A DNA stretch of 41,694 nucleotides from Anaerolineae bacterium. GTDB lineage: Bacteria > Chloroflexota > Anaerolineae > Aggregatilineales > Phototrophicaceae. The notes under the pieces were generated by a model that saw nothing but the letters and a program-made list of their open reading frames with translations, was not told the DNA's origin and made no database searches. A program made the translations under genes and the position numbers. The stretch is taken from positions 1-41,694 of the forward strand of contig JAPKMO010000028.1 in the NCBI GenBank assembly GCA_026645945.1. The letters run 5' to 3'. Of this stretch, positions 2,469-41,694 are shown one piece after another (positions within the stretch are counted from its first letter, which is position 1; each line of letters starts with the position of its first letter).

Positions 2469-4016
2469 TCAGGAAATTCGTTTGATCGGCAGGCGAACGC
2501 TGAACGTCGTGCCGACGCCGACCTGACTTTCGACGCTGATGCTGCCGCCATGCCGTTCAACCGCCTGCCGGGTGATCGCCAGTCCCAGGCCGGTGCCTTG
2601 AATCTGGCCGACATTGGAAGCGCGGTGGAAGGGTTCAAACAGGCGGCGCTGGTCATCTTCGGGGATGCCGATACCCTGATCGCTGACGCGAATGATGGCC
2701 GTATCGCCTTCGCAGGCCAGTTCAACGCTGATTGGCGCACCTTCCCGCGAGTATTTGATGGCATTGGTCAGCAGATTGGTGATCGCCCGCCGCAGCAGTT
2801 TAACATCCACATCGGCTTCCACGCGCCGCCCCGTGCCGGAAAACTCGATGCAGCAGGCCATCCGGTAAGCGAGCTGGATTTCCTCGATGATGTCGCGGCA
2901 GTAGGTTTCCAGATCAATCGTTTCGGGATAAAACTCGGCGCCGGTGAAATCCGACTTGCTGATAGTCATCACGTCGTTAATCATCTCGGCCAGATGTTCG
3001 GTCTGCGTTTCGATAACCTCGTAGGATTCGCGCTTCTCCTGCTCCGTCATGCGGTCGCCATAGGCTTTTAACATGCTGTTCGCCAGCCGAATCGCGCCTA
3101 GGGGGGTGCGGAGTTCGTGCGACATCATGGAGATGAAGCGGTTTTTTAACTCACGCAGTTCGCGTTCGTTATCAAGCTGCATGTTAAGGCGCTGTTTTTC
3201 GAGAAGCTGCCCTTCCAGATATTTTCGCTCGGTGAAATCCTGGATGACGCCGGTAAACAGGCGTCTGTCATCCAGCCGAAGCTGGCTGACGGCGAAATAA
3301 ATGGGAAACAGCGTGCCATCTCTGCGCCGCCCGACGACTTCATCCCCCAGGCGGCCAATCTTCTCGACAAAATCCGCCAGCGCGCGTTCGTCGGCCTGGT
3401 TTTCCAGGTCGGACACCAGACAGCCGATAGATTGGCCGATCAGTTCATTGGGTTGGTAGCCGAAGATGGCTGCGCCCGCCGGATTGACGGATTCGATCCG
3501 GCCAGAGCGGTCAAAGGTGATGATGCCGTCTACCAGATTATCCAGAATGGTTTCCAACCGCTGTTTGCTGTTTTGTAGTTCCACCTGCACGCGCTTGATT
3601 TCGGTCACGTTCTGGTGGGCGACGATCAAACGGCGGTAGTCCCGCCACTCAAAAGTCGTAATCTGGATGACAAACCAGCGCCGTTCGGAGGGACTGTGGC
3701 AGGGATATTCGAGATCAAACTGCGGCAGAGAACTTGCCAATATCCGGCGGATGCCCTGCGCGACGGCCAGGGCATCGGGCGTGGCGGCACGGTCGCATAC
3801 GGCCAGGTAGTTCGTGCCGATGCCATACCGGCTGTCTGTGAAGCCGTTGTTTTCAGCAAACTGCCGCCACGCCTGGTTGACGTGGATGATCGTTCCGGTT
3901 TCGTCAAGGATGGCGATATGAGCGGTCAGGCCGTCCAAAGCGGCTTTGACGAAGTTTTCCGCCTCGACCAGGATAGGGAAATCGGCGGCGCTGGCCGGGC
4001 CGAGCAAAGAATTCAC
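2469..4016 (-). CDS. PAS-domain sensor histidine kinase
   Basis: 515 residues with no membrane helix, so probably a cytosolic sensor kinase. Two PAS-like domains (about 22-140 and 150-265; the second has SVNPAGAAIFGY and ends VIQDFTERK) lead through a short coiled coil into the HisKA dimerisation domain. The phosphoacceptor is His300 in MMSHELRTPLG. The ATPase domain follows with N box NLLTNAIKYS (about 414-423), G1 DQGIGIP (about 446-452), F box LFEPFHRAS and G2 GTGLGLAI (about 474-481). Length and order are typical of hybrid-free two-component kinases. No response regulator lies beside it, so it is an orphan kinase here. The signal it senses cannot be read from the sequence. Its -10 box lies about 35 bp upstream. 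Confidence 0.95.
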   Translation of the reverse strand: MNSLLGPASAADFPILVEAENFVKAALDGLTAHIAILDETGTIIHVNQAWRQFAENNGFTDSRYGIGTNYLAVCDRAATPDALAVAQGIRRILASSLPQFDLEYPCHSPSERRWFVIQITTFEWRDYRRLIVAHQNVTEIKRVQVELQNSKQRLETILDNLVDGIITFDRSGRIESVNPAGAAIFGYQPNELIGQSIGCLVSDLENQADERALADFVEKIGRLGDEVVGRRRDGTLFPIYFAVSQLRLDDRRLFTGVIQDFTERKYLEGQLLEKQRLNMQLDNERELRELKNRFISMMSHELRTPLGAIRLANSMLKAYGDRMTEQEKRESYEVIETQTEHLAEMINDVMTISKSDFTGAEFYPETIDLETYCRDIIEEIQLAYRMACCIEFSGTGRRVEADVDVKLLRRAITNLLTNAIKYSREGAPISVELACEGDTAIIRVSDQGIGIPEDDQRRLFEPFHRASNVGQIQGTGLGLAITRQAVERHGGSISVESQVGVGTTFSVRLPIKRIS

Positions 4017-4049
4017 AGGCGCTCCCAGAATTTTTCAGACAACATTTTT

Positions 4050-4055
4050 ATTATA
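4050..4055 (-). promoter_or_regulatory. -10 box for the histidine kinase gene
   Basis: A perfect TATAAT on the minus strand lies 34 bp before the kinase ATG. I see no convincing -35 at 16-18 bp, so this is a partial promoter call. Confidence 0.4.
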
Positions 4056-4109
4056 GCCCGTTTGCACCTCCAGCGGCAGAGCAGGCGAAATTTTCTTATC
4101 TTTTTCTGG

Positions 4110-4138
4110 TAGACGGCGCAAACATGATCTGCTATAAT
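4110..4138 (+). promoter_or_regulatory. sigma70-type promoter of the SWIM protein gene
   Basis: TAGACG (4110-4115, four of six matches to TTGACA), a 17-bp spacer, then perfect TATAAT (4133-4138). Transcription would start near 4145, about 20 nt before the start codon. It diverges from the kinase promoter, so both sit in one 147-bp intergenic region. Confidence 0.55.
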
Positions 4139-4163
4139 TAGAACAAATGTTTAGCGAGGTGGG

Positions 4164-4565
4164 ATGATGAAGCCGAAAAACATCAAACGACTTCAGGAAC
4201 GGGGGAAAGACCTGCGGGCTTACATCCTCAATCCCAATCTGGTCGTGGTGGAAAGCGTTTCGCACCCGCTGGCGAATCATGTCGTCACCGTCAAATACCT
4301 GCGGGATGACCGGATTTACGCCCGCTGCACCTGCCCCTGGGCGATCAACGGCGGCGTGGCCTGCTCGCATGTCATCGCCGCGCTGGAACACCTGGCCGAA
4401 GTACGCGGGCGCAAGTTAAGCTTCTGGACAAACAAGGCGGACGCCCAGCGCCAGAAACACCGGTTGTTCTACCTGACCGGCGGCCAGCGCGACGACGGCA
4501 TTTGGATCACCAGCCGCCCCGCCCGGTGTGGCAAACGCCGCCACATGGCAGATAAAGCGGCCTGA
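4164..4565 (+). CDS. SWIM zinc-finger domain protein
   Basis: 133 residues. The centre holds CTCPWAINGGVACSH (about residues 56-70), which fits the SWIM zinc-finger pattern CxCx(n)CxH. SWIM fingers mediate DNA or protein binding in many contexts, for example SWI2/SNF2 ATPases and MuDR transposases; here the finger stands alone with basic flanks and a basic C-terminus. There is no catalytic domain. The start is ambiguous: two ATGs are adjacent (4164 and 4167) behind GAGGTGGG, and the second has the better spacing. It is monocistronic, has its own promoter, and converges on the small membrane-protein operon with 6 bp between stops. Family identification is firm; function is unknown. Confidence 0.75.
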   Translation: MMKPKNIKRLQERGKDLRAYILNPNLVVVESVSHPLANHVVTVKYLRDDRIYARCTCPWAINGGVACSHVIAALEHLAEVRGRKLSFWTNKADAQRQKHRLFYLTGGQRDDGIWITSRPARCGKRRHMADKAA

Positions 4566-4571
4566 ACGCGG

Positions 4572-5228
4572 CTAACGCCCCCTGCGCCGGGCTTCGTCCT
4601 GCTGCGCCAGCAGCTCCTCGAACGAAACCGGCTCGTTTTCGACGCTTTCCAGCCGGTTTCGTAATTCGGCCAGTTCGTATTCGTCAAGCGTGTTTATCAC
4701 CACGTCCACCCGGCTGCCGGTTTCGCCGCGTTTGGCTTTAGCCGCCCGCGCGGCTTTTCTGGCTTCCGGCTCGGCTTCTGCCTCAGCATGTCGCCAAACG
4801 AAATATGTGGAAACCACCGCCGCCAGAGTTACTGCTAAGGCCAGCAGAACCATCGGCCCCATGCGGGCATCAAGCTGCTGATTCAAGCCGGTGATGACCT
4901 GGCTCATTAAATCCTGGGCGATTCTCTGTGCATCGCTGACCATCTGCTGCCAGCGATCCCAATCGGCCGGGGTAAAGTCGGCGAAGGGAGTAACCGGATA
5001 AGTCGGCCACAGGCCGGTAAAATCCGCCGTCACCCGCATAAAACGGTCGAAGATGTTGCTCATCATCACGGCAAAGGCAATCCAGATGGCCGCCGTTGAA
5101 AATAAACGCTCGCGCCCCCGCATGAACGAATCCTCCGTTATTCCCTTAAACAACCACCACAGCCAGCGAACAGGATAAAACAGCCATCCAAAAATCGCGC
5201 GGAAAAACCGCCGGAGCGCGCGGAACAT
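4572..5228 (-). CDS. Small membrane protein with conserved C-terminal ELRxRL motif (third of three paralogues)
   Basis: 218 residues. A basic, Trp/Phe-rich N-terminus (FFRAIFGWLFYPVRWLWWLFKG) may be a membrane-associated segment. Two clear hydrophobic segments follow (about 43-60, FSTAAIWIAFAVMM, and about 126-145, MVLLALAVTLAAVVSTYFVW), separated by a roughly 65-residue loop. The cytosolic tail carries RVDVVINTLDEYELAELRNRL ... EPVSFEELLAQQDE, which closely matches the tails of the two upstream proteins. The ATG sits 3 nt after the stop of the preceding gene, so translation is probably coupled. I do not recognise a named family. Confidence 0.75.
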   Translation of the reverse strand: MFRALRRFFRAIFGWLFYPVRWLWWLFKGITEDSFMRGRERLFSTAAIWIAFAVMMSNIFDRFMRVTADFTGLWPTYPVTPFADFTPADWDRWQQMVSDAQRIAQDLMSQVITGLNQQLDARMGPMVLLALAVTLAAVVSTYFVWRHAEAEAEPEARKAARAAKAKRGETGSRVDVVINTLDEYELAELRNRLESVENEPVSFEELLAQQDEARRRGR

Positions 5229-21800: not shown

Positions 21801-22384
21801 TGTGGAATATGACCGCCGAAGGTTGGCGCGCGGCGGCCTGCGACCGGGCGCGCCTGAACTTTACGCCCGTTGAGTGGGAGCGGTTTTTCCCCGGCCAGGA
21901 TTATCGCCCAAGCTGCCCGGAAAGTCCCGCCGGGCTGCCTGAGGTGCTGGCGCGCGGCGAGTCGCTGGCGCGGGACGGCGATAAAAACGGCGCGGGACGG
22001 CTGTTCGAGACGGCGATGAATTGGGCATCGCAGACCGATGACAGCCGCTCGTTGGCGCAGGTCTGCTACCGGGGTGCGCTGAACGGCTTCGCCTCGCTGG
22101 TGCTGCCGGCCTGCGAACGCGCCGTCCAGATGTCGCCGGAAGCGGGCGTACCGTATCACCGGCGCGGCATCGCCCGCGCGCTGCTGGGTGATTATGCCGG
22201 GGCCGCCGAGGACTTCCGGGTGATGCTGGAATGGCTTAAAACCTGGAACGATAGTTTTCCTGAATCGGAGCGCGGGGTTTACGAGGCCCTGTCGCCGGGC
22301 ATTCTGGGCTGGATAACGGCGCTTAAAGCCGGGCAAAACCCCTTCGATGCCGATACGCTGGCTGCCCTGCGCGAGCAGGGTTAA
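18884..22384 (+). CDS. TIR - transmembrane - coiled-coil - WD40 - TPR-like protein
   Basis: 1166 residues; ATG behind GGGAGGG. TIR domain 1-130 (VFISYSRRDADF, DWEDIP, ITPDSLASTVCGQE with Glu74 at the NADase position), the same post-TIR block as its paralogue (LRGDDLSEAESWL), then Arg-rich RSRQAANARQR before one membrane helix (about 203-224). A coiled coil (about 228-320) has repeats of AEADSRATQxRIAxDNA. About twelve diverged WD40 repeats (355-935) probably form two propellers (FSPDGRxLASxGxD, LWDxxTG). The C-terminus (about 980-1130) looks like TPRs (YHRRGIARALLGDYAGAAEDF). The charge pattern predicts TIR inside and WD40 outside. Repeats are far less alike than in the protein at 1-2380. Role as receptor or NAD-consuming effector is inferred. 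Confidence 0.93.
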   Translation: MADVFISYSRRDADFVRQLHARLSEAGRDCWVDWEDIPPSAAWLSEIYGAIEAADAFIFVITPDSLASTVCGQELEHALKHNKRLVPLLRRPADGQDVPEPLAALNWIYCRETDSFDEAFGRLLAALDTDLAYVRAHTRLLVRAVEWETRALNNSYLLRGDDLSEAESWLAGSGGKNPAPSDLHTRYIFRSRQAANARQRVTIGSLAGGLVLALVLAAFALVQWNNANLSQATAVAEADSRATQQRIAEDNAAAAQAAEGTALAEADSRATQERIALDNAGTAVAAQATAVEEANVRATAQAVAEMQARIAQSGQLAAQALNQINEHLDMALLLSAEAYRTYNTFEARRSLLTTVAERPELVMYLREHASDAPVSAVAISRDGRALASADEDGTIILWDAATGQRRWRAVDHIFQITRLAFTPDGQTLLATDTRENLTLWDVNTGQRIAWPHVGEALDGALAADFSSDGRFKASASLPNPNPAVILWDVLSGQRLAALTGHTDLMDDVAFSPDGRWLASVAEDRTLRLWDVETHQSVGDPWQTETQNWPTDLTWRPDGKVLAVAYIGYGLMLWDAENRREIARREIDTSSPETIEQLAFTPDGATLIAGLNTGRIMRLNAETLEQVGSALAGHTGKVNALAVSADGRRLVSGGEDGLVIVWSLVKRPAFGRTLDYSLEAGTPRNITFNGDELILLQCAEDCLNRVVSRWDAATGQPKGEPLAFSNDQFRAFRMAFNSDGSALASGGMDNQVMLVDLAAGADIHEPLRGHGDYATAFAFSLDGKLLASSSLDNTILLWDTATGEPKGEIALETQVFSVDPGGFWSLAFSPDGRLLAAGDGNGTIHVWEVSGGALLDEYNAHEFAIVDAVAFSPDGRLLASGGGNYQITLWDMQRHQRVGQPLVGHTNSVNALAFSPDGEILASAGNDGQIFLWDVATGQPYGPPLAGHTFLAVHLAFSPDGRWLASSGPREVILWNMTAEGWRAAACDRARLNFTPVEWERFFPGQDYRPSCPESPAGLPEVLARGESLARDGDKNGAGRLFETAMNWASQTDDSRSLAQVCYRGALNGFASLVLPACERAVQMSPEAGVPYHRRGIARALLGDYAGAAEDFRVMLEWLKTWNDSFPESERGVYEALSPGILGWITALKAGQNPFDADTLAALREQG

Positions 22385-22387
22385 ATG

Positions 22388-22544
22388 CCATTTGAGAAGT
22401 CCTTTTGCCCTCATCCCCCAGCCCTTTCTCCCTTATGGAGAAGGGGAGAAAAGACCGCTTAAACTCCTCTCCCTCAGAGAGCGGGCGAGCCGAACGGGGA
22501 CGCATATCCCCTGAGCGCGAGTGGGGCGAGGGCTTTTCAAATGG
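22388..22544. repeat. Palindromic dispersed element (copy R1, MITE-like)
   Basis: The 22407-22533 core begins GCCCTCATCCCC and ends GGGGCGAGGGC, imperfect inverted ends; outer CCATTTGA (22388-22395) pairs with TCAAATGG (22537-22544). Inside are hairpins such as TTCTCC-CTTAT-GGAGAA. Its reverse complement aligns along most of its length with the insertion in metH at 39013-39109, sharing the core CCCCTTCTCCATAAGGGAGAA and both ends; the metH copy lacks about 38 bp of the left part. It lies just after the TIR-WD40 stop. Confidence 0.8.
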
Positions 22545-22566
22545 TCTCTTAGCGAGGCGCAAACCA

Positions 22567-36305: not shown

Positions 36306-36523
36306 GAACACGAAACCAGGGCGATTGCATATCCAATCTTAACTGGCTCATGGCCCTTTCAGACCCCTCCCCAGCCCTCCCCGTATACGGGGAGGGGGGG
36401 ACGAGTCACGCCAGCATTCATCCTCCCCTGTATACGGGGGAGGTGTCCCGAAGGGCGGAGGGGGTCGAGAAGCAGATTGAGAACACTTGTACCGTTTATA
36501 TGCGATTGCCCTGAACACGAAAC
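36306..36523. mobile_element. MITE-like element with 11-bp flanking direct repeats
   Basis: GAACACGAAAC occurs at 36306-36316 and again at 36513-36523, a likely target-site duplication. Inside, CAGGGCGATTGCATAT (36317-36332) faces ATATGCGATTGCCCTG (36498-36513), imperfect inverted ends matching at 14 of 16. The roughly 196-bp interior has two GTATAC-centred palindromes, the first perfect (CCCTCCCC-GTATAC-GGGGAGGG, 36375-36396) and the second near-perfect (about 36422-36443). It has no transposase and must be mobilised in trans. It lies between the HEAT operon start and the riboswitch promoter; apparent reading frames in it are artefacts of the repeat. Confidence 0.7.
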
Positions 36524-36576: not shown

Positions 36577-36680
36577 TTCTCATCACGAGCGACGGAGGGA
36601 ACGGCCCTGTGAAGTCGCGGCAACCCCCGAAGCGTCGGGACGGTGCCAAGTCCGGCAGGCAAACACCTGGAAGATGAGCG
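36577..36680 (+). promoter_or_regulatory. SAM-I (S-box) riboswitch
   Basis: P1 stem CTCATC (36579-36584) pairs with GATGAG (36673-36678). The conserved core is present in order: GGAGGGA, GGCCCTGTGAAG, CGGCAACC, GGTGCCAAGTCC, GGCAGG, GGAAGATGAG. These are the hallmark SAM-I sequences for binding S-adenosylmethionine. With a promoter before it and a terminator after it, it should stop transcription when SAM is plentiful. The expected target is methionine biosynthesis; the first gene after it is a toxin-antitoxin remnant and metH begins about 1.3 kb on. Confidence 0.93.
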
Positions 36681-37348: not shown

Positions 37349-37681
37349 ATGCAAATCCCGAACTGTGAACGCGCTATCGTTGACATTGTGAAATTGCGGG
37401 ACTACTGCCTCAACCTCGATCATATCAGGGGTCGCCATAAAGCCAGAGTATTTCTCAATGTGCTTGGGCTGACGGTGAATGATGCGGGATTCCTGCACGA
37501 GGAACTGCTCAAAGCTGCCTGCAATGATGGAGCTGTGATTGGCGAACGGGATGAATTTGGACAGCGATATCGGCTGGATTTTGCAGTAGCCGTTAATGAG
37601 AAAAAGGCCATTGTTCGCAGCCTGTGGATTATTCGCTCTTTGGAAGATGTTCCACGATTGACAAGCTGTTATGTACTTTGA
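37349..37681 (+). CDS. DUF6883-type protein
   Basis: 110 residues. The pattern KLRDYCLNLDHIRGRHKARVFLNVLGLTVNDAGFLHEELLKAA ... DEFGQRYRLDFAV ... AIVRSLWIIRSLEDVPRLTSCYVL fits the DUF6883 family (xKLxxYLLxxxHxxGRHKARxF; RSLWIIRxxEDxPRLxSCY). No signal or membrane helix. Function unknown. The next gene, 11 bp on, is DUF4926, which is its frequent partner, so the two may work as a pair. The ribosome-binding site is weak. The 61 bp before it show nothing notable. Confidence 0.78.
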   Translation: MQIPNCERAIVDIVKLRDYCLNLDHIRGRHKARVFLNVLGLTVNDAGFLHEELLKAACNDGAVIGERDEFGQRYRLDFAVAVNEKKAIVRSLWIIRSLEDVPRLTSCYVL

Positions 37682-37692
37682 GAGGTGAGGTA

Positions 37693-37905
37693 ATGCTGCA
37701 ATTACTGGATGTTGTCGCCCTGACCGAAGATTTACCGGAGCGCGACCTGCTGCGCGGGCAGGTTGGAACGATTGTCGAGATTCTTGCGCCGGATGCATAC
37801 GAAGTCGAATTCAGTGATAACAACGGGCGCACCTATGCCATGCTGGCGCTGCGCGGTGACCAGTTGATGGTGCTGCACTACGAGCCGGCGCAAAAGGCTG
37901 GGTAA
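37693..37905 (+). CDS. DUF4926 protein
   Basis: 70 residues from MLQLLDVVALTEDLPERDLLRGQVGTIVEIL; start fixed by GAGGTGAGG just upstream. The small SH3-like beta-barrel pattern (DVVALTEDLPExxLxRGQVGTIVExLxxxxYEVEFSDxxGRTYAxxxLxxxQLMVL) is characteristic of DUF4926. No known activity. Paired with the DUF6883 gene; the two are likely co-transcribed and might be a toxin-antitoxin-like or regulatory pair (inference). Confidence 0.85.
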   Translation: MLQLLDVVALTEDLPERDLLRGQVGTIVEILAPDAYEVEFSDNNGRTYAMLALRGDQLMVLHYEPAQKAG

Positions 37906-38017: not shown

Positions 38018-41000
38018 ATGACCACCACCCGCACCTACACCAACCGGCGCTATCTGGACGCGATTGCCGATCATATCGTCATCTTCGACGGCGCGATGGG
38101 GACGAGCATCCAAAAGTTCAACCTGACGGCGGCAGACTTCGGCGGCGAGCGTTACAACGGCTGCAACGATTATCTGGTCATCACCCGCCCGGACGTGATC
38201 GAGGCCATCCATGCGTCGTTCCTGGCCGTCGGCAGCGAGGCGGTGGAGACGGATACCTTTCGCGGCAACCGGCTGACGCTGGCCGAATACGGCCTGGGCG
38301 ACCGCGTGCTGGAGATCAACCGCGCGGCGGCGCAGATCGCCCGGCGCGTCTGCGACCGTTTTGAGGCCGAAACCGGCATCCCGCGTTTTGTGGCCGGCAG
38401 CATCGGCCCGTCCGGCAAGCTGCCCAGCGGCAATGACCCCGACCTGAGCAATATCACCTTTGAAGAACTGGCGGACGTATTTTACGAACAGGCGCGCGGG
38501 CTGGTCGAGGGCGGCGCAGACCTGCTGCTGGTGGAAACCAGCCAGGATATTCTGGAAGTTAAGGCGGCGGTGGCGGGCATCAACCGTTATTTCGAGGATG
38601 CCGGCGTGCGGATTCCGCTGCAATGTCAGGTGACGCTGGACACTACCGGGCGTATGCTGTTTGGCACGGACATCGCCTCGGCGCTGGCGACGTTGGAGGC
38701 GCTGCCGATTGATGTGATCGGCATGAACTGTTCCACCGGGCCGGAATACATGCGCGCGCCGATTCAATATCTGGTCGAACACAGCCGCCTGCCCATCAGT
38801 GTGCTGCCCAATGCCGGGCTGCCGATCAACGTGGACGGCGAAGCGGTCTACCCGATGGAGCCGGAGCCGTTCAGCGACATGGTTTCGGAGTTCGCCCGCT
38901 GGGGTGTCAACGTCGTCGGCGGCTGCTGCGGCACGCGCCCGGAACACCTGGACGCGCTGTACCGCAAGGTGCATGGGCATTCGTATGCAGAATTGCTGGC
39001 ATCGCGACACCTGCCCTCACCCCAACCCCCTCTCTCTCAGGGCGAGGAGCCTAAACAGCAGGCTTTTCCCCCCTTCTCCATAAGGGAGAAGGGGACGGGA
39101 GATGAGAGCATCAACCTTACCCCGCCCAGGCCCCGCGCCCCCCAGCACGAACCCGCCGCATCCAGCGGCATGACAGCCACGCTGATGCAGCAGAACCCCG
39201 GCCCAACGCTGATCGGCGAGCGCGTCAACAGCCAGGGCAGCCGCAAGGTCAAACAGCTTTTACTGGCCGAAGATTACGACAGCATCGTGCAGATTGCCGT
39301 TGACCAGGTGAACAGCGGCGCGCACATGCTGGATGTATGCGTGGCGCTGACCGAACGCGCCGACGAAAAAGAGCAGATGCAGGCGCTCGTCAAAAAACTC
39401 TCGCTGGCCGTCAGCGCGCCGCTGATCTTCGATACCACCGAGGCCGACGTGGCCGAAGCGGCGTTGGCCCTGTATCCAGGGCGCGGCATCATCAACGGCA
39501 ACAACCTGGAAAACGGTCGGGAGCGGATAGATAAAATTCTGCCGATTGCTAAAAAACATGGCGCGGCGGTCATCTCGATGACCATTGACGAAGAAGGCAT
39601 GGCGCACAGCCGCGAACGCAAATACGCTATCGCCCGGCGCATCCACGACATCGCCGTAAACGAATACGGCCTGAGGCCGGAAGACCTAATTTTTGATACG
39701 TTGGTGTTCACGCTGACCACCGGCCAGGAAGAACTGCGGAACAGCGCCATCGAAACCATCGAGAGCATCCGGCTTATCAAACAAAATCTGCCCGGCGTGT
39801 TAACCTCGCTGGGCGTGAGCAACGTCAGCTTCGGCGTCACCCCGGCGGCGCGCGGCGTATTAAACAGCGTGTTCCTGTACCACGCCGTCCAGGCCGGGCT
39901 GGACATGGCAATTGTTAACCCCGCGCATATCACCCCTTATGCGGAAATTCCCGCCGAGCAGCGCAAGCTGGCCGATGACCTGATTTTTAACACTGATCCC
40001 GACGCGCTGCCGCGTTTCATCCAGTATTTTGAGCAGAACGCGGTGGCGGCGGGCGGTAAGGAAGTCGAAGACCCAACCGCCGACATGACCAGCGAGCAGG
40101 CGCTCCACTGGCAGATCGTCCACCGCAAAAAAGACGGCGTGGAAGCCCTCATTGATGACTGCCTGACGCGCCAGGATGCCGTCGGCGTGCTGAACAATGT
40201 GCTGCTGCCGGCCATGAAGGAAGTGGGCGACAAGTTCGGCGCGGGCGAGTTAATCCTGCCCTTCGTGCTGCAAAGCGCCGAGGTGATGAAAAAGTCGGTC
40301 GCCTACCTGGAAACCTTCATGGACAAGGTGGAAGGTTCGACCAAAGGCGTGGTCGTGCTGGCGACGGTTTACGGCGATGTGCATGACATCGGCAAAAACC
40401 TGGTTAAAACCATCCTCAGCAATAACGGCTATACCGTTCACGACCTGGGCAAGCAGGTTCCGGCCAACACCATCATCGAGAAGGCGCAGGAATACAACGC
40501 CGACGCCATCGGCCTGAGCGCCCTGCTGGTCAGCACCTCCAAACAGATGCCGCTGATCGTTAACGAACTGGCGCGGCGCGGCCTATCGTATCCGGTTTTG
40601 ATCGGCGGCGCGGCCATCAACCGCAGGTTCGGGCGGCGCATCCTGTTCCTTGAGGAAACGAACCAGCCTTACGAGCCGGGCGTATTCTATTGTAAAGACG
40701 CTTTTGAGGGGCTGTCGGTGATGGACAAACTGGCCGACCCGCAGGAGCGCGGCGACTTCGTAGGGCAGATTTTCGCCGAAGCGTTTGAGGAAATGGGCAA
40801 ACCCGCGCCGGTCAAACGCGCGGTTACGCCGGGAACGCGCACCGTTCGCCCTGCGCCGAGTATCCCGACGCCGCCCTTCTGGGGGCCCAAAACCATCCTG
40901 GAAATGCCGCTGGAGATTGTCTTTAAATACCTGCACAAACCGGAACTGTTCCGCTTGTCCTGGGGCGCAAAAAACACCCAGGGTGACGAATGGGCGCGGC

Positions 41001-41694
41001 TGGAAGCCGAGTTCGAGGCGCGGCTGGCGCGGATGCAGAAGGATGCCATCCGGGACAAAACGCTGCGCCCGCAGGCGGTTTACGGCTACTTCCCCTGCAA
41101 TAGTCAGGGCGATGATCTGGTCGTCTGGGACTGGCAAGCATTTAACGAAAATGGCGCCGGGGCGCAGAGTCTCGCGCCCCTACAGAACGGCCAGCAGGCA
41201 TTAACCGAACTCGCCCGTTTCACCTTCCCACGCCAGCCGGGCGGCGAACACCTGTGCCTCAGCGATTATTTCGCGCCGGTCGAAAGCGGCCAGGTGGATA
41301 CGGTCGCCTTGCAGGTGGTAACGGTCGGTGCGGCTGCAACCGAAGCCTTCGATAAGCTGCAAGCGGCCAACGAGTACAGCGAGGCCTATTTCTTTCACGG
41401 GCTGGCCGTGCAGACCGCCGAGGCAGCCGCCAATTTCGTCAACCGGCAGGTGGTCAACAAGGAACTGGGCATCCCGCCGGGACAGGGCAAACGTTACAGC
41501 TGGGGCTACCCCGCCTGCCCTGACCTGCGCGATCATGAAACCGTCTTTAAGCTGCTGCCCGGCGCGGCAGCCGACCTAGGTTTAAGCCTGACCGCCTCTT
41601 ACCAGCTTGTGCCGGAGCAAAGCACGGCGGCCATCGTCGTCCACCACCCCGACGCCAAATATTACAGCGTGGGCAGTCTCGACCGGACGGCGCA
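38018..41694 (+). CDS. metH: Cobalamin-dependent methionine synthase (partial, last residues off the right edge)
   Basis: 1225 codons visible, nearly complete. Transfers methyl from methyltetrahydrofolate to homocysteine via cobalamin. Domains: homocysteine-binding (1-325) with zinc ligands Cys238 (GMNCSTG), Cys303 and Cys304 (GGCCGT); pterin-binding (about 388-690, PTLIGERVNSQGS); cobalamin module (about 705-900) with DVHDIG, where His789 is the lower cobalt ligand; AdoMet-binding activation domain (about 930 on) with YFPCNSQGDD, SWGYPACPD and HHPDAKYYSVG. Two in-frame repeats interrupt linker or loop regions: residues 332-364 and about 1046-1057. GGAG precedes the ATG by 12 nt. Probably reached by the transcript from the SAM-I riboswitch upstream. 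No frameshift is seen. Confidence 0.97.
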   Translation, partial: MTTTRTYTNRRYLDAIADHIVIFDGAMGTSIQKFNLTAADFGGERYNGCNDYLVITRPDVIEAIHASFLAVGSEAVETDTFRGNRLTLAEYGLGDRVLEINRAAAQIARRVCDRFEAETGIPRFVAGSIGPSGKLPSGNDPDLSNITFEELADVFYEQARGLVEGGADLLLVETSQDILEVKAAVAGINRYFEDAGVRIPLQCQVTLDTTGRMLFGTDIASALATLEALPIDVIGMNCSTGPEYMRAPIQYLVEHSRLPISVLPNAGLPINVDGEAVYPMEPEPFSDMVSEFARWGVNVVGGCCGTRPEHLDALYRKVHGHSYAELLASRHLPSPQPPLSQGEEPKQQAFPPFSIREKGTGDESINLTPPRPRAPQHEPAASSGMTATLMQQNPGPTLIGERVNSQGSRKVKQLLLAEDYDSIVQIAVDQVNSGAHMLDVCVALTERADEKEQMQALVKKLSLAVSAPLIFDTTEADVAEAALALYPGRGIINGNNLENGRERIDKILPIAKKHGAAVISMTIDEEGMAHSRERKYAIARRIHDIAVNEYGLRPEDLIFDTLVFTLTTGQEELRNSAIETIESIRLIKQNLPGVLTSLGVSNVSFGVTPAARGVLNSVFLYHAVQAGLDMAIVNPAHITPYAEIPAEQRKLADDLIFNTDPDALPRFIQYFEQNAVAAGGKEVEDPTADMTSEQALHWQIVHRKKDGVEALIDDCLTRQDAVGVLNNVLLPAMKEVGDKFGAGELILPFVLQSAEVMKKSVAYLETFMDKVEGSTKGVVVLATVYGDVHDIGKNLVKTILSNNGYTVHDLGKQVPANTIIEKAQEYNADAIGLSALLVSTSKQMPLIVNELARRGLSYPVLIGGAAINRRFGRRILFLEETNQPYEPGVFYCKDAFEGLSVMDKLADPQERGDFVGQIFAEAFEEMGKPAPVKRAVTPGTRTVRPAPSIPTPPFWGPKTILEMPLEIVFKYLHKPELFRLSWGAKNTQGDEWARLEAEFEARLARMQKDAIRDKTLRPQAVYGYFPCNSQGDDLVVWDWQAFNENGAGAQSLAPLQNGQQALTELARFTFPRQPGGEHLCLSDYFAPVESGQVDTVALQVVTVGAAATEAFDKLQAANEYSEAYFFHGLAVQTAEAAANFVNRQVVNKELGIPPGQGKRYSWGYPACPDLRDHETVFKLLPGAAADLGLSLTASYQLVPEQSTAAIVVHHPDAKYYSVGSLDRTA
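39013..39109 (+). repeat. Palindromic dispersed element inserted in frame in metH (copy R2)
   Basis: Begins GCCCTCACCCC, ends GATGAGAGC, with a 10-bp-arm hairpin CCCCTTCTCC (39070-39079) / GGAGAAGGGG (39085-39094). It aligns with the reverse complement of the intergenic copy at 22407-22533, both at the ends and over the core. Translated, it gives LPSPQPPLSQGEE...FSIREKGTGDES, a low-complexity segment between the homocysteine and pterin domains. The open frame is kept. Confidence 0.85.
41159..41185 (+). repeat. GC-rich hairpin repeat in frame in metH (family GCGCGCCCCTAC, copy 3)
   Basis: GGGGCGC (41159-41165), 8-nt loop, GCGCCCC (41174-41180), then TACAG. The stretch CGCGCCCCTACAG is identical to the intergenic copy at 29580-29606. 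It encodes part of NGAGAQSLAPLQNG in the activation domain, where related enzymes have a short loop. Confidence 0.65.

Follow-up and report, generated by a model that had tools for sequence, protein, structure and literature searches.

A decayed BoxC/TM-like repeat pair in frame in the MetH inter-domain linker of an Anaerolineae bacterium, and repeat-like inserts at the same site in related genomes

Introduction

The gene metH of an Anaerolineae bacterium raises the question of how a palindromic stretch with relatives elsewhere in the same genome comes to be read as part of a conserved enzyme, and whether the place that it occupies is an accidental one. Very small mobile dispersed repeats, some of them inside genes, occur in filamentous cyanobacteria. 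The Rickettsia palindromic elements (RPE) have been described as repeats of 105-146 bp lying in frame in conserved proteins, and in the only enzyme assayed, according to the part of the source available, their effect was neutral or slightly detrimental (PMC2229807). For the intragenic REPs of the GTAG/CGTC type, the insertions in flexible linkers or loops were suggested to be neutral; two Xanthomonas species were found to carry different REPs at nearly the same position in recB, and GTAG repeats were reported in Chloroflexi (PMC3733652, as far as the sections seen describe).

The repeat within metH

The window analysed here is the whole stretch of 41,694 nucleotides, contig C175 of the source genome (G000; 4.7 Mb in 254 contigs, 92.6% complete, with 3.5% contamination), whose MetH is in its best segment 86-93% identical to the nearest Chloroflexota metagenome assemblies. 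The gene, two of its domains and the repeat are located as follows:

38018..41692, + strand: metH, B12-dependent methionine synthase, an ORF that runs off the contig end, with Pfam S-methyl_trans, Pterin_bind, B12-binding_2, B12-binding and Met_synt_B12
38078..38968, + strand: homocysteine-binding domain, residues 21-317 (Pfam PF02574, E 2.7e-79)
39215..39919, + strand: pterin-binding domain, residues 400-634 (Pfam PF00809, E 2.1e-40)
39013..39109, + strand: in-frame repeat of 97 bp, an inverted pair of hairpin-plus-third-block units, codons 332-364 of metH (alignment, genome search, triad scoring and frame check)

The original prediction had placed an open, in-frame palindromic insert of about 33 residues exactly at 39013-39109, and both its coordinates and its frame proved right: one of the six frames is open across the 97 bp, and it is the one read by MetH, while in ten other full or near-full repeat pairs, sliced by eye, one to four frames are open. 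Because the homocysteine domain ends at residue 317 and the pterin domain begins at residue 400, the insert is inter-domain. The same prediction called the linker flexible, of which the inter-domain position stands; the word itself is too simple, since in the available part of a paper on the full-length MetH structure this linker is described as one that 'zips' the two domains together (PMC10567725). For the same reason, the neutrality of the insert has the status of an assumption.

A SAM riboswitch lies at 36577-36680 (+ strand), about 1.3 kb upstream of metH, and two small overlapping frames, DUF6883 and DUF4926, occupy 37349-37905 between them; a SAM riboswitch also stands ahead of metH in six of the eight relatives' loci scanned, about 0.09 to 2.3 kb before the match. 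The Rfam scan of the window at gathering thresholds found no known RNA family besides this riboswitch, and the metH repeat as a known RNA family was accordingly set aside.

A dispersed family of short and long copies

The metH stretch belongs to a dispersed repeat family. Its alignment (38981-39160) with the reverse complement of the intergenic 22381-22560 scores 88, where 678 other 180-bp segments of the window, on both strands, reach 29 at most, so the proposed match of metH to the intergenic 22407-22533 was borne out; in the whole-genome search, the metH copy matches the 22406-22485 element at 81% over query positions 17-99 (E 3.1e-15). The intergenic partner is the following:

22407..22533, - strand: intergenic copy of the long type, after an ORF ending at 22384, with five full genome copies at 89-100%, itself included; it contains a unit at 22409-22445 (-) of 8/9 triads

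Further copies of the element were found in plenty, so that the absence of such copies, which would have spoken against a mobile family, did not materialise. With the metH copy as the query, 46 places in the genome were obtained at E<=10, and with the long intergenic element 49, many of them partial in either case. The hairpin core was found at 30 places of the own genome with up to three mismatches, the reversed control pattern at none, and the fuller repeat motif is present in 15 of the 17 genomes of the genus and in none of the controls. The metH copy, with GCCCTC and GAGAGC at its ends, had been predicted to lack about 38 bp. This holds only in comparison with the long type, as three other short copies of 96 bp (on contigs C180, C211 and C243) match its positions 1-98 at 76-78%; therefore, the metH copy can be a complete member of a short subtype, and its derivation from a shortened long copy became unnecessary.

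BoxC/TM-like architecture

Each half of the metH repeat consists of a hairpin with a third block, rich in G, behind it, and both halves are decayed. The units, with one more found in the window, are:

39015..39047, - strand: left metH unit, hairpin with two stem mismatches in 9, third block, 7/9 triads
39071..39107, + strand: right metH unit, perfect 9-bp stem, loops 5 and 5, third block, 7/9 triads
36363..36396, - strand: another hairpin-plus-third-block unit, upstream of the SAM riboswitch, 8/9 triads, perfect stem

These are the core sequence and the order of blocks, CCCTCTCCC-loop-GGGAGAGGG-loop-GGGTGAGGG, of the BoxC/PIT/TM repeat as given in the accessible part of Holder et al. 2015 (PMC4666352), which is likewise multi-copy, dispersed and found also as inverted pairs: of the 23 TM copies of E. 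coli MG1655, five inverted pairs that combine two types were reported. Three E. coli TM controls reached 9/9 each in the scoring of purine-motif triads, unlike the decayed metH copy with 7/9. The window scan at 8/9 triads returned two places, 22409-22445 (with one stem mismatch) and 36363-36396, and none in 10 shuffled windows; with 7/9 each, the metH units are not picked up at this threshold. Set against the published BoxC/TM search rule of a 6-15 nt stem with one mismatch allowed and loops of 1-6 nt (PMC4666352, as stated in the portion available), the right unit has a perfect 9-bp stem and loops of 5 and 5, the left one two mismatches in 9, and the intergenic 22409-22445 one mismatch. The metH copy thus resembles two BoxC/"TM" intrastrand-triplex repeats in inverted orientation that have decayed, and it may or may not be a strict member of that class.

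The TM repeats of E. coli MG1655 have been reported as always intergenic, whereas the metH copy and others here lie in frame inside genes; that location is an observation about the E. coli copies and not a defining criterion, and in the part of PMC4666352 available no statement on coding copies was found. Among the best literature matches listed, no title dealt with in-gene TM repeats in Chloroflexota.

Filled and unfilled MetH linkers in relatives

The linker was measured between the CCGT and IGERVN motifs and was readable at 100 of 110 loci, with several genomes represented twice. It is not shared by the close relatives: the commonest form is a plain linker of 58 residues without a repeat (38 of the 100 loci), against 92 residues in the own genome. 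Long linkers with a repeat-like insert were also found in G005 (86 residues), G006 (76), G008 (72), G013 (103), G014 (75), G015 (95) and L110 (70). Hence 7 of the 16 same-genus genomes read (of a set of 17, where the linker of G007 was not reached) and one other genome, L110, carry such an in-frame insert, two of the eight assignments being weaker. The linkers of G003, G004, G009 and G010, with 79-84 residues and no clear repeat, were counted as repeat-free, and that of G009 may hold a remnant of a repeat; G015 has a TM-like unit at the site where its sister G009, as well as G003 and G004, has none. The original prediction of an insertion into metH is therefore upheld as to the in-frame repeat but not as an isolated event, since seven other genomes have repeat-like inserts there; for the same reason, the metH copy may be the replacement or the diverged form of an earlier insert and not a first arrival at an empty site.

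The inserts are of several makes: the two-unit element of the own genome; the insert of G013, with a decayed version in G005 (E 1.5e-18 between them); a 29-bp palindrome in G008, matched by a degenerate one in G006; and single TM-like units in G014, G015 and L110. The G013 insert is TM-like in its right part (9/9 triads, two stem mismatches) and has matches among the long-type elements of the own genome in its left part. Most of them are repetitive in the genomes that carry them, for with the insert as the query and itself included, at least 41 matches were counted in G013, at least 77 in G008 (both strands) and at least 7 in G006, at least 47 in the genome of L110, and at least 18 in G015, with at least 17 in the sister G009, whose MetH is without the insert.

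The best short-loop stem in the linker is 14 bp in G008, 11 in G000, G006 and G013, 10 in L110, 9 in G015, 7 in G014 and 6 in G005, and it does not exceed 8 in 11 repeat-free linkers. In control windows of the same metH genes, a stem of at least 9 was reached in 15 of 354 and of at least 11 in none of 354, where the longer linkers had somewhat more room, as slices of 74-209 bases were set against 120-base windows. The linkers of G005 and G014 are not distinct from the controls by stem length, and without the loop limit a few repeat-free linkers, e.g. L088, L115 and L082, show perfect stems of 9-10.

One insert or several

In the pairwise comparisons, whose slices contain some of the shared linker, the insert of G000 is similar to those of G013, G014 and L110 (score equalled by 0 of 200 shuffles) and weakly similar to that of G005 (1 of 200), to which it may be related. 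It has no similarity above shuffles to the palindromes of G006 and G008 (98 and 53 of 200 reach the score). From these scores, the MetH-linker inserts comprise at least two families of unrelated sequence, the TM-like one and the 29-bp palindrome; a count of at least three unrelated types was dropped, as the TM-like inserts resemble one another. G000, G005 and G006 form one clade with metH blocks beside the linker that are 87-99% identical; for the pair G000 and G006 these blocks are 89-97% identical and the inserts dissimilar and, judged by sequence, unrelated. In a MetH tree of 30 rows built without the linker, the repeat label, assigned by the analyst, has to change at least four times, by gain or loss, four changes being forced by well-supported branches.

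A possible if less probable account of this variety is that the five closest species inherited a single ancient, perhaps composite, insertion from their common ancestor, which then diverged and was deleted to differing extents, a different piece being kept in each of them. It would explain why G005 and G013 have one insert type and G006 and G008 another across the split of two clades, a pairing of types over two sub-clades that could mean an ancestral composite, and why the inserts of G000, G005 and G013 are somewhat similar; given the likeness of the TM-like inserts in G000, G013, G014 and L110, the five-species clade may indeed owe some of its variety to one ancestral insert that diverged. 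The flanking blocks give no indication that lineages have exchanged them, which agrees with such an ancestor and led to the rejection of a transfer of the linker along with its flanks, and E. coli strains often differ by the deletion or mutation of TM loci (PMC4666352, in the part seen). Against it stand the dissimilarity of the G006/G008 palindrome to the G000 insert and the lack, among the genomes examined, of any with both insert types, and G014, G015 and L110 would still require separate changes on the tree.

Repeats in frame in other genes

The codon score, from a model trained on metH with the own copy included, put 13 of the 30 hairpin-core places of the own genome in frame, two of them being the metH halves. 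The number rises to 16 of 30 with the places on C218 and C215, which have orthologue support, and on C194, which has a long open frame only. Seven of 16 in-gene places, picked for their long frames, were compared with the orthologues of up to five relatives (30 relatives' loops; the stretch of G013 and a weaker match of G008 for the C177 gene were left out). The seven genes are, by names read from the sequence, those of LeuRS, a P-type ATPase, an E2 acyltransferase, a methyltransferase and three others, and the repeats found in the corresponding loops of close relatives are similar, decayed or different ones. For G014 the comparison covers four of the seven: three have no insert, and LeuRS has a different one. 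A stem of at least 9 was found in 11 of the 30 relatives' loops, a count that stands without control windows for those genes. Elsewhere in the genus, fewer units are in frame: 2 of 22 scored in G015 (from 20 stretches out of 70 fuller-motif places), 1 of 13 in G014 and 1 of 7 in G008. The in-frame prevalence of the repeats is not universal among the genus genomes.

It is also conceivable, and unlikely, that the repeat-encoded segment is selected, either because the linker length or its proline-rich peptide tunes the domain motion of MetH, or because the hairpin acts in DNA or mRNA by pausing or stability. The linker that zips two domains together, as the portion of PMC10567725 available has it, would fit such a role, as would the perfect hairpins kept in some in-gene copies, e.g. 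in the LeuRS-like gene; a conserved function predicts otherwise than a site that in close species has dissimilar sequence, another length or no insert, and the same kind of insertion recurs in unlike proteins. That GC-rich, proline-rich linkers mimic GC-rich palindromes by chance is very improbable, for although the linkers have this composition and two of the eight are not distinct by stem length, the match to the intergenic copy has E 3e-15 at the DNA level, the reversed pattern finds nothing and a stem of 9 is reached in just 15 of 354 control windows.

Comparison with known intragenic repeats

The parallel with RPE drawn in the original prediction is apt as a comparison, as a palindromic repeat lies in frame in a conserved protein gene in both cases, and does not extend to membership: the phylum and the sequence are other ones, and the ends GCCCTC/GAGAGC of the metH copy lack the CGTC tag given for the R. 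conorii RPE in the part of PMC3733652 available. With the intragenic REPs described there, the repeats have in common the location inside genes, in linkers or loops, and the differing repeats at one site. Unlike GTAG/CGTC REPs, the TM-like units are without tags; GTAG REPs leave the GTAG at one end unpaired, and the G008 palindrome, which begins with GTAG, has these bases paired within its 29 bp; they are degenerate in G006. The difference from the recB case, as reported in the same source, is that eight genomes have repeats, of at least two sequence families, at one reused MetH site. In-frame palindromes are known already from RPE and the intragenic REPs, and the present additions are the occurrence of the TM-like class within genes and one enzyme linker reused by TM-like and unrelated repeats.

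Proposed course and meaning

The reading preferred here, and considered likely, is that a multi-copy TM-like pair occupies the MetH linker, which would have been filled repeatedly by at least two repeat families under high-flux copying, with survival in tolerant linkers. Small palindromic repeats would be copied around these genomes at a high rate; most of the in-gene landings would be lost with a broken frame or fold, and copies with an open frame in linkers and surface loops would persist as roughly neutral insertions, which may later decay, shrink or be replaced. The MetH linker would then be one of several standing landing sites. The data suggest that this joint of MetH has been repeatedly rebuilt from repeat DNA; frame-compatible linkers that hold repeats are probably near-neutral, and no catalytic role is proposed for the about 33 added residues. 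A wider and rather doubtful proposition is that linkers like that of MetH are standing sites where palindromic repeats, even unrelated ones, swap on the time scale of species formation, with repeat turnover exceeding point mutation as the main source of linker diversity.

Thus, a repeat class whose purpose is obscure and whose E. coli copies were reported as intergenic now has relatives in open frame inside conserved enzymes, and the filled, unfilled and differently filled MetH linkers of related species form a comparative series for the movement of repeats and for the gain of linkers from repeat DNA.

Possible movers and further in-gene palindromes

No target-site duplication was established at the inserts and no transposase was tied to the repeats. 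A RAYT as the mover in the own genome was rejected, because there are just two Y1_Tnp matches, both inside long frames; the frames that contain such matches in G006 and the own genome are all 663-1007 aa long. Shorter Y1 transposase frames, of about 140-200 aa, are present in G008, G011, G014 and G015, the Y1_Tnp matches of G008 being in frames of 148 and 166 aa.

In the G008 relatives of the C230 and C88 genes (L211 and L206), long in-frame palindromes unlike TM, with stems of 16 and 13, occupy the very loops that contain TM-like units in the own genome. On contig C56 of the own genome, a single long frame at 3869-4825, formylglycine-generating-enzyme-like by a reading of its sequence, contains three in-frame hairpin units and a direct peptide repeat.
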